NCBI GenBank assembly: GCA_030748335.1
Contig: JASMMD010000015.1
Location: 1 to 34,524 of the forward strand
Direction: 5' to 3'
Source: Candidatus Thalassarchaeum sp.
Lineage (GTDB): Archaea; Thermoplasmatota; Poseidoniia; Poseidoniales; Thalassarchaeaceae
DNA length: 34,524 bases
The translations under genes and the position numbers were made by a program. Positions 32,121 to 34,303 of the stretch are shown in pieces. Numbering within the stretch: the stretch's first letter is position 1; each line of letters starts with the position of its first letter. The notes beneath the pieces were generated by a model. The model was not told the DNA's origin and did not search any database. It was given only the letters and a program-made list of their open reading frames with translations.

Positions 32121-32342
32121 TCAACCGCCCGACGAGACGACTATCAACTCGAGACTGATGTCAGACTCAATCCGCGACGTATGAGGTACTATCGTGTCGC
32201 CATGAACGGCGAGGACGGTGGATGACGGGATGCCCAGCCTCTCGAGTAGTTCCAATATTGTGATTGACCCTCCGGATTCGACCGAGAGTGTTTCTCCGTC
32301 ATGATTGATCTCGATCCTCACGGCCCTTGCGTGTCGGGTCAT
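32121..32342 (-). CDS. ThiS/MoaD-like ubiquitin-fold protein ending in Gly-Gly (SAMP-like)
   Basis: A 73-residue beta-grasp protein starting at ATG 32342 (MTRHARAVRIEINHDG). It ends LELIVVSSGG, and the terminal Gly-Gly is required for thiocarboxylation or conjugation. This fits SAMP2/ThiS/Urm1-like proteins used in tRNA thiolation and protein modification. The ORF track starts at 32462, but the extra 40 residues are the antisense of tRNA-Ser and are rejected. It lies next to a PAC2 gene, and a modifier beside a proteasome-related gene is suggestive. A second Gly-Gly protein is at 8507-8743. Confidence 0.82.
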   Translation of the reverse strand: MTRHARAVRIEINHDGETLSVESGGSITILELLERLGIPSSTVLAVHGDTIVPHTSRIESDISLELIVVSSGG

Positions 32343-32350
32343 GCTTATCT
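32343..32350 (+). promoter_or_regulatory. Candidate TATA box for tRNA-Ser
   Basis: GCTTATCT is centred about 29 bases upstream of the tRNA-Ser 5' end and lies just upstream of the start codon of the divergent ubiquitin-like gene, so the two start regions share sequence. Confidence 0.45.
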
Positions 32351-32375
32351 CTAATCCGCAGGTGGCCGAACCGCT

Positions 32376-32458
32376 GCCGAGATCGCATAGCCCGGTATTG
32401 CGGTGGATTCGAAATCCACTGTCCATTGGACGCGGGGGTTCAAATCCCTCTCTCGGCG
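32376..32458 (+). tRNA. tRNA-Ser (anticodon CGA)
   Basis: GCCGAGA pairs with TCTCGGC; the anticodon stem GTGGA/TCCAC holds TTCGAAA (anticodon CGA); the long variable arm TGTCCATTGGACGC marks a class II tRNA; the T arm is GGGGG-TTCAAAT-CCCTC. The discriminator is G and CCA (32459-32461) is encoded immediately after it. The nuclease gene on the opposite strand ends on the next base. Confidence 0.95.
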
Positions 32459-32461
32459 CCA

Positions 32462-34303
32462 CTAGAACTCAGGCACCTCGGAGGAGTCACGCAGTATCAC
32501 GAGGCGCCCCCCTGGCCCAATCCTGACCTGTGGCTGCCCGTTGAACTCGCCGATTTCCCCGTTGAGAATCGCTATCTCATCCCCCCTAGTCACCCCCGCT
32601 GCAGCCAGTGGGATGAACTGCCTGAATGCAACCACTCCTGCAGACCCCGTCTGATCCACCATCGTCACCGACCACCGGGTCACTCCCTCGCCATCTGGGA
32701 ATGCATTCACCGACCACACTCTGCCGATGGCATTGACCTTGGTCTCTATGTCGACTATGGGAGCGGAGTCGGACTCGTCTGCGATTGCGACCGAGGACTT
32801 ATCGTCTAAATCGAGAACTACCTCGCCCTTCCAGACCGATGCCATGGCGTCCTCGATGCGGACTCTGCTGCCGTTGGTAATCGAGCGGGTGACCTGTCTA
32901 GGGGTGCCGTATCGCGAGGGTCGCACCTTGGCTCGGTCATATCCCTCCTGCAAAATAAATGAGAGTTCCACCGAGCCATCGGCCGCTAGGTTAGGACCAC
33001 GCAGACCCGAGACCTCCCCGACCACGTCCACACGGGTCACAATCTCGCCGAGCGGGGTTACCGGCCAGTTGTGGCCGAAGCGCTCTATACTGCGCTCGAG
33101 AGGGAGTTCTAGGTCGTGTTCGCTGCCCTCACAGACGCCACGAAGTTCGCAGCGTCTGCAACGAGCGCGTGGGTCTGGATCGATGGGGGTCTGCGAAGGT
33201 ACCCCGCCCTCATCGAAGTACCTCAGCGGTGCGGGCTCGGGCGGGCACTCGTCGATTGCTGGGTCACGAGCGTGGATTCTTCCATACAGGGCCTCCAGCT
33301 CCTCAGTGAGGCCGAGCAACTCATCCTGAGTTGGCCTCGGAACATCCTTTACCGAGCCAGTTCCAAGATACCAAATCTCGAGTGCCTCGACCTCATCAGC
33401 CCTACCGTGAGTCTCCCACCACAACCAGCAGTAGAGGCGTAATTGATCGATGTAACTGCCCGAGCGATCTCCCCTGCCTATCGATGCCTTGAGGTCGACG
33501 ATTCGAATGGCACCGGTCCAGTCGTACACCATGTCGTACTCTCCCTGGAACCACTCCTCGGGGTGTGAAGTGGTCTGCTTCCACTGACCAGCATCTGGAT
33601 CGACGAACCACGGACGCGCGACCTCCCAAGCCTCGAACCAAGTGATGTCGCCTGAGTCGCGCGCCGCCGGGTGCCTCTCTATCCAGACACGCGGGAAGCC
33701 GTCTGGGGCCGGCCACTGGCCTCTCATACCACCTGCGCGCCATTCTGAGAACTTCGGCCCACCTCCGGCCTTCAAGCAAGTTTCGACCTGATCTAGGTGC
33801 ATCCTGATACCAGCTCGAACCATTTCTAGGGCTTCTTCGGGATCTGCATCTGCCACTGAGCCAGAGCGGTTGGGGGACGATTCCCAGTCTGCGACTGCCG
33901 CGTCCCAGCACGAATCGAAGTGCACATCGACGCGAGACATCGCCCAAGACTCGAGGGTCTTCCTGTCTTCCGGCCACTGCTCCTCGGGAAGCTCGAGCAT
34001 CGCTGGGCTTGGCCACGCCATCTGATTGTCGTATTCTAGGGAGCCGTCATCCAACAAGGGTGATTTCATCCCATCGGGAGAGTCTGCGGAAATCAGAACG
34101 GGAGAATCTCTGAGGACTCGGCAGACACATTCCTCGGCTGCGTTGCCTCGGATTATCTGAGGTGGCAGCGGGCTCTTTAGACGCTCCATGTAGGTGTAGT
34201 ACCATAGCCTGTTGCAGGAATTCCAAGTATTGACCTGCGATGCTGAGAGCCTGCGGAACGGATTGACTCCCGCGGCTTCTGGGTCTCCGATTCTGACCGG
34301 CAC
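32462..34303 (-). CDS. PD-(D/E)XK nuclease (Cas4/RecB-like, probable Fe-S) fused to two OB folds
   Basis: A 613-residue protein. The nuclease core has GEYDMVYDW (D257), IRIVDLKAS (D270, K272) and DQLRLYCW (Q287-x3-Y291), the RecB-family order of motif II, motif III and QxxxY. Cysteines at 30 (SCNRLWYY) and at 382, 385 and 391 (CRRCELRGVC) are arranged as in Cas4 and AddB, where four cysteines hold a [4Fe-4S] cluster. From ~415 on come two OB-like domains (IVTRVDVVGEVSGLRG and VNAIGRVWSVNAFPDG), which may bind single-stranded DNA. It would resect or trim DNA ends. The GTG at 34303 is supported by a TTCATAG element 26 bases upstream. Its partners are unknown; no helicase or CRISPR gene is nearby. 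Confidence 0.8.
   Translation of the reverse strand: MPVRIGDPEAAGVNPFRRLSASQVNTWNSCNRLWYYTYMERLKSPLPPQIIRGNAAEECVCRVLRDSPVLISADSPDGMKSPLLDDGSLEYDNQMAWPSPAMLELPEEQWPEDRKTLESWAMSRVDVHFDSCWDAAVADWESSPNRSGSVADADPEEALEMVRAGIRMHLDQVETCLKAGGGPKFSEWRAGGMRGQWPAPDGFPRVWIERHPAARDSGDITWFEAWEVARPWFVDPDAGQWKQTTSHPEEWFQGEYDMVYDWTGAIRIVDLKASIGRGDRSGSYIDQLRLYCWLWWETHGRADEVEALEIWYLGTGSVKDVPRPTQDELLGLTEELEALYGRIHARDPAIDECPPEPAPLRYFDEGGVPSQTPIDPDPRARCRRCELRGVCEGSEHDLELPLERSIERFGHNWPVTPLGEIVTRVDVVGEVSGLRGPNLAADGSVELSFILQEGYDRAKVRPSRYGTPRQVTRSITNGSRVRIEDAMASVWKGEVVLDLDDKSSVAIADESDSAPIVDIETKVNAIGRVWSVNAFPDGEGVTRWSVTMVDQTGSAGVVAFRQFIPLAAAGVTRGDEIAILNGEIGEFNGQPQVRIGPGGRLVILRDSSEVPEF

Follow-up and report, generated by a model that had tools for sequence, protein, structure and literature searches.

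The window analysed here is the whole 34,524-nucleotide stretch of contig JASMMD010000015.1, part of an archaeal genome (G000) of 1.16 Mb and about 81% completeness. On its minus strand, at positions 32462..34303, lies a gene that starts with GTG at 34303 and whose stop codon ends at 32462. These are exactly the coordinates of the open reading frame reported in the initial annotation, and the plus-strand reading of the same interval is full of stops. The 613-residue product, an A-type paralog in the terms used below, is predicted to combine an Fe-S-type PD-(D/E)XK nuclease with two OB folds in one chain, and is called the OB nuclease below. It is 97% identical over the whole protein to its closest named relative, from a Marine Group II euryarchaeote, and further named matches come from Candidatus Thalassarchaeum and Candidatus Poseidoniales. 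Marine Group II archaea are highly abundant in the ocean. Throughout, A type denotes orthologues of the window gene and B type its tandem paralog; residue conservation is given for 49 A-type and 15 B-type sequences aligned together, and coordinates within the gene are on the minus strand. The labels f1, f2 and f3 denote families of the class Poseidoniia, of which f1 includes Thalassarchaeum-like loci (identical matches L008/L016 and L025/L024) and f3 is the third, sister family. By Nei-Gojobori comparison with near relatives the gene is under strong purifying selection, with dN/dS of 0.05–0.09 over the gene and the lowest values in the second OB fold (0.02–0.04 in the three relatives with enough changes for an estimate).

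The nuclease region spans residues 15-395 (33119..34261) and is RecB/Cas4/Dna2-like by Pfam, AlphaFold2 and Foldseek. PF12705 (PDDEXK_1) matches the 613-residue protein with an E-value of 7.8e-13, better than the family cut-off. An AlphaFold2 model of residues 1-400 alone (pLDDT 77, pTM 0.80) found Dna2 as its best Foldseek match in the PDB (E 1.4e-3), with further matches to the Cas4-family protein ACE1, Cas4-Cas1-Cas2, AdnAB, MGME1, AddAB and Exo5. These values are marginal, none being better than 1e-3 and overall TM-scores being 0.2–0.4, so the nuclease assignment is built on the agreement among the matches, taken with the motifs and the Pfam match. Taken together, they place the predicted protein in the RecB/Cas4/Dna2 branch of the PD-(D/E)XK superfamily. 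The catalytic residues are the motif II aspartate D257 (33533..33535), motif III D270-L-K272 (33488..33496) and the QxxxY motif Q287-x3-Y291 (33431..33445). D257, D270, K272 and Q287 are present in all 49 A-type and all 15 B-type sequences, while Y291 is found in 48/49 A (the remaining row has an X) and 15/15 B. Judged by these residues the PD-(D/E)XK active site is intact in both paralogs, and the intact core described in the initial annotation holds well beyond the single protein on which it was based. Helices 114-142 and 155-178, both confidently modelled by AlphaFold2, constitute an insertion between the first cysteine and motif II, its end lying close to C176.

The cysteines follow the pattern of Fe-S (AddB/Cas4-type) nucleases. 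C30 (34214..34216), the first of the set, is found in 49/49 A and 15/15 B and aligns with the CPR motif of Cas4 4r5q. In the C-terminal group, C382-x2-C385-x5-C391 (33131..33160), every A and B sequence has C382 and C385, while C391 is present in 49/49 A and 4/15 B; some f1 B copies retain CxxCx5C. The A type therefore has, by alignment, the one N-terminal cysteine and C-terminal CxxCx5C of this nuclease class. An extra cysteine, C176 (33776..33778), is likewise present in every A (49/49) and B (15/15) sequence. The spacing of C382, C385 and C391 matches the C-terminal cysteines of Cas4 4r5q and those of the organism's own AddB-like protein (C1188, C1191 and C1197). Cas4 4r5q and the family profile are colinear at the N-terminal CPR motif, at GxxDLV/xxK/QLxxY and at CxxCx5C, with a significant alignment only at the first cysteine motif (E 0.002) and not at the two later ones. 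AlphaFold2 has low confidence at residues 377-395 (pLDDT <50), and the C-terminal cysteines are not resolved by the model. From the conserved pattern we infer that the set holds a 4Fe-4S cluster. The four cysteines that had been assigned to Cas4/AddB positions from one sequence are thus all conserved throughout the A-type orthologues, where their loss would have spoken against the assignment.

C-terminal to the nuclease lie two OB folds, at residues 424-507 (OB1; 32783..33034) and 521-608 (OB2, RPA-like; 32480..32743). In the full-length AlphaFold2 model (pLDDT 79.8, pTM 0.75) they appear as two barrels of five to six strands, at 424-507 and 522-605, mostly with pLDDT of 84–93. Nearly all of the top 50 Foldseek matches to this part are tandem-OB proteins, including HIN-200, POT1 and Teb1 (E 1e-7 to 1e-9) and telomere end-binding protein; the differing orientation of the two barrels keeps the TM-scores low. 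In profile searches OB2 matched Pyrococcus abyssi RPA (E 4e-9) and OB1 matched Ta0387 (E 0.0012). Compared with one another, the two folds prove homologous (hhalign 98.1%, E 5e-13), and the pair aligns across both domains with the organism's own RPA (hhalign 93%, E 3e-7). By profile and model, the OB folds are thus related to RPA/SSB. The two OB-like domains proposed in the initial annotation are therefore recovered by modelled strands, fold search and profile comparison alike, and the possibility that the C-terminal region is not OB at all, on which that proposal would have fallen, finds no footing in the model. The organism keeps a separate RPA gene (562 aa), and a role as stand-in for a missing RPA was accordingly rejected. 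In four f2 genomes the RPA gene lies ~22 kb from the nuclease pair (G002:C1, at 744 kb and 767 kb; G006:C43; G058:C1; G034:C4), which is possibly plain synteny.

The OB nuclease is encoded by a vertically inherited core gene of Candidatus Poseidoniales. It is present in 120/146 genomes of the class, in all 21 genera of f1 and f2, and in about 96% of sampled Marine Group II (Candidatus Poseidoniales) genomes; the five listed f1/f2 genomes without it are drafts of 79–88% completeness. It was not found in any listed f3 genome. Among 293 Thermoplasmatota genomes, full-length or near-full-length matches were confined to f1 and f2. Matches outside these families were short, weak and N-terminal, to other RecB-type proteins, and the full-profile matches listed there cover the OB part of RPA-like proteins. 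The genome-wide scan beyond Thermoplasmatota detects close relatives only, so more distant homologues may exist in other phyla. A contig titled 'Micrococcales bacterium' (L015, NZLD01000096.1) carries a copy 62% identical to that of the window; it is nearly identical to Marine Group II copies, and the contig is very likely misbinned.

Two head-to-tail copies occur at every sampled f2 locus and in several f1 genera, and most genera outside the lineage of the window carry adjacent, catalytically intact A and B. A maximum-likelihood tree splits A from B with 100/100 support for each; some deep long branches may be misplaced, though not across the A/B divide. Since A and B each contain both f1 and f2, a single duplication predates the family split, and B was lost from the f1 clade to which the window belongs.

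The neighbours of the OB nuclease are housekeeping genes and not a defence island. Most lineages have, downstream, the genes for a small ubiquitin-like protein with GG at its end and for PAC2, Nop10, aIF2-alpha and L44e. In the window, a 113-aa open reading frame (32121-32462, minus strand) is probably a shorter ubiquitin-like modifier of ~66–76 aa ending in SSGG, and its N-terminal extension overlaps a tRNA-Ser gene at 32376-32461. This tRNA-Ser(CGA) gene runs on the opposite strand, its end one base away from the stop codon of the nuclease. In the tandem lineages the upstream order is ABCE1, then B, then A, with short gaps or overlaps, an arrangement that looks like an operon, while single-copy lineages, that of the window included, have PdxT and a radical-SAM gene. 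This setting raises the alternative of an RNA-processing nuclease whose OB folds bind RNA and which acts in tRNA or ribosome metabolism: ABCE1 is adjacent in the tandem lineages, aIF2-alpha, Nop10, L44e and the tRNA-Ser gene are close by, and the weak Pfam OB match is to the tRNA_anti-codon OB family. We consider it very unlikely, because the relatives of the nuclease fold (Dna2, AddAB, AdnAB, Cas4, MGME1 and Exo5) have DNA as their substrate, the profile matches of the OB folds are to RPA/SSB and not to RNA-binding OB folds, and the upstream genes in the lineage of the window are the radical-SAM gene and PdxT instead of ABCE1.

Less likely still is a role in defence, in which a solo-Cas4-like or Argonaute-associated Cas4-like nuclease would destroy invading DNA. 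Its appeal lies in a fold resembling Cas4-family proteins, ACE1 included, in weak PADLOC matches to DruK and Cas4, and in the proposal that solo-cas4 genes serve defence or repair (PMC5704561). No helicase or CRISPR gene lies beside the nuclease in the window or in the loci of its relatives, as had been noted for the window at the outset. No Argonaute or other defence gene was recognised nearby, Cas1 was not found in 26 genomes (9/14 controls positive), and phage, plasmid and viral-contig collections contained no match to the OB nuclease. Together with the housekeeping neighbours, the absence of Cas1 from the 26 genomes and the low dN/dS disfavour defence, as does the order-wide vertical inheritance of the gene at a conserved locus. 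Defence was therefore rejected as the main reading after the PADLOC, Cas1, mobile-element and neighbourhood checks. Of the two roles suggested in the initial annotation, stand-alone end processing survives as the most likely reading and the defence enzyme is disfavoured.

Other end-processing genes of the order differ from those of the sister family. NurA was not found in any of the nine Poseidoniales genomes examined, and was found beside HerA in the f3 genome G001. The same nine encode an SF1 helicase frame of about 1600–1750 aa, absent in G001. This AddA-like protein matches TIGR02784/TIGR02785 (E down to 1e-43), though well short of the equivalog cut-offs, and has a nuclease domain at its end. 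Its gene directly follows an AddB-like gene of about 1200–1260 aa, in whose C-terminal nuclease C839, C1188, C1191 and C1197 are invariant; the AddA- and AddB-like proteins each have an Fe-S-type nuclease domain with conserved motifs. Such AddAB/AdnAB-like operons, with AddA-like products of about 1600–1690 aa, lie at G000:C31 (L106), L107, L109, L110, L112 and L115. AddB-like profile matches occur in 46/48 sampled Poseidoniales and 0/5 f3 genomes, with three weak ones elsewhere in the phylum. The presence of AddAB-like genes and absence of NurA, against HerA-NurA in the sister family, possibly reflects a swap of the end-resection system; the pattern follows one split in the tree and is thus a correlation only, no proof of replacement. 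A HerA/DUF87 search returned a different ATPase, of 700–900 aa, in some genomes. The Rad50 zinc hook gave no matches in 16 genomes, with controls positive in 3/14, Haloferax not among them. In the genome of the window the AddB-like gene (G000:C31:1-1477, L106) is interrupted by one TGA inside the match; the interruption is absent in close relatives and may be an assembly error.

On this background one could picture A and B as an obligate heterodimer, accessory to the AddAB/AdnAB-like helicase-nuclease in a resection machine that replaced HerA-NurA. The AddB-like gene and the OB nuclease have nearly the same spread across the phylum, NurA is missing from the nine Poseidoniales while accompanying HerA in f3, and A and B are neighbours of equal age. 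Several points make this arrangement decidedly unlikely, however. The A/B genes are not adjacent to the AddAB-like genes, the co-occurrence traces to a single split in the tree, which makes it one event, and the clade of the window lives without B. The nuclease domains of the AddA- and AddB-like proteins leave no nuclease missing, and for the same reason the idea of the OB nuclease as the missing nuclease of a bare helicase was rejected. Nor is the OB nuclease the sole RecB-type nuclease of the genome. A second stand-alone one of 395 aa lies at L092:1453-2640 (G000:C2; PF12705, E 2.8e-20), adjoining another PAC2-family gene on one side and, on the other, an open reading frame that resembles by eye the C-terminal end of NAD-dependent DNA ligase.

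The reading we prefer, at a probability of roughly 55%, makes the OB nuclease a stand-alone enzyme, like Dna2 but without a helicase, that is specific for ssDNA and part of the chromosomal replication/recombination toolkit of Poseidoniales. The conserved catalytic residues, the Foldseek relatives, the RPA-like OB pair, the core status, the purifying selection and the housekeeping neighbours support it, although the OB folds could bind RNA or protein instead. In such an enzyme, the 4Fe-4S cluster held by the cysteines would clasp the nuclease fold, while the tandem OB folds would bind ssDNA, feeding it into the nuclease site or orienting it there, so that one chain would give what Dna2 gets from separate RPA. 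Candidate substrates would be ssDNA ends, 5' flaps or resected tails, and candidate pathways Okazaki flaps, stalled forks and trimming after AddAB-like resection; where both exist, A and B may act as a pair. Nuclease activity, Fe-S content, substrate, polarity, the A/B partnership and the pathway are all matters that we infer from sequence. A wider and unlikely extension would make the family a class of self-RPA nucleases, Dna2-type with RPA in cis, originally an A/B pair (maybe a heterodimeric two-site enzyme), which rebuilt end processing together with an acquired AddAB-like system and replaced HerA-NurA.

No description of this architecture was found in the open-licence literature, whether on nuclease-RPA-like fusions, on Poseidoniales DNA repair or on archaeal AddAB-like systems, and a phylogenomic study of Cas4 makes no mention of OB-fold or Marine Group (PMC5704561). 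The initial annotation likewise pointed to no described system with this architecture. Its components are of known kinds; what appears to be undescribed is their fusion, the core status across the order and the ancient tandem pair. The order has, as a core gene, a nuclease with RPA-like OB folds attached; it also has AddAB-like genes and no detectable NurA, and HerA-NurA occurs in a sister family. Should the enzyme act as proposed, it would unite the Dna2-RPA partnership in a single chain, and the part that RPA plays in cleavage polarity could be studied in cis.

Among known systems, archaeal RPA/SSB (P. abyssi RPA 8aa9/8aaj and Ta0387) resembles both OB domains by profile and fold, but here these domains are fused to a nuclease. 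MGME1 and Exo5, among the Foldseek matches, are stand-alone RecB-like ssDNA exonucleases without a helicase, and both are without the OB tandem. AddB/AdnAB nuclease domains share the C...D...DxK...QxxxY...CxxCx5C layout, which is also seen in the organism's own AddB-like protein; that protein aligns with the OB nuclease (hhalign 89.7%, E 1.9e-6) in the motif III-QxxxY stretch only. Unlike AddB, the OB nuclease is without the helicase-like N-terminal region, lies outside the addA operon and has OB folds added. With Cas4 and solo-Cas4 it shares cysteine spacing and motif order (Pcal_0546, 4r5q), and with solo-Cas4 the vertical inheritance reported for that group (PMC5704561). The Cas4 model TIGR00372 scored 13 against a cut-off of 65. 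In contrast to Cas4, the OB nuclease is three times longer, carries the fused OB pair, occurs without CRISPR adaptation genes and has a ~190-residue insertion between the first cysteine and motif II that holds the invariant C176. Dna2, the best Foldseek match of the nuclease model (mouse structure 5eax/5ean, PMC4716839), is an Fe-S-type nuclease of the RecB-like kind; it acts at the ends of ssDNA, in partnership with the OB folds of RPA, and has an OB domain of its own. Its active site lies in a narrow tunnel and requires a free ssDNA end, and RPA sets its cleavage polarity (PMC4716839). In Dna2, however, an SF1 helicase domain is C-terminal to the nuclease, where here the chain ends after two OB folds, and its single OB domain is N-terminal and makes no DNA contact, whereas here two RPA-like folds stand at the C-terminus; given this placement, the likeness between the two proteins is one of parts and not of layout.
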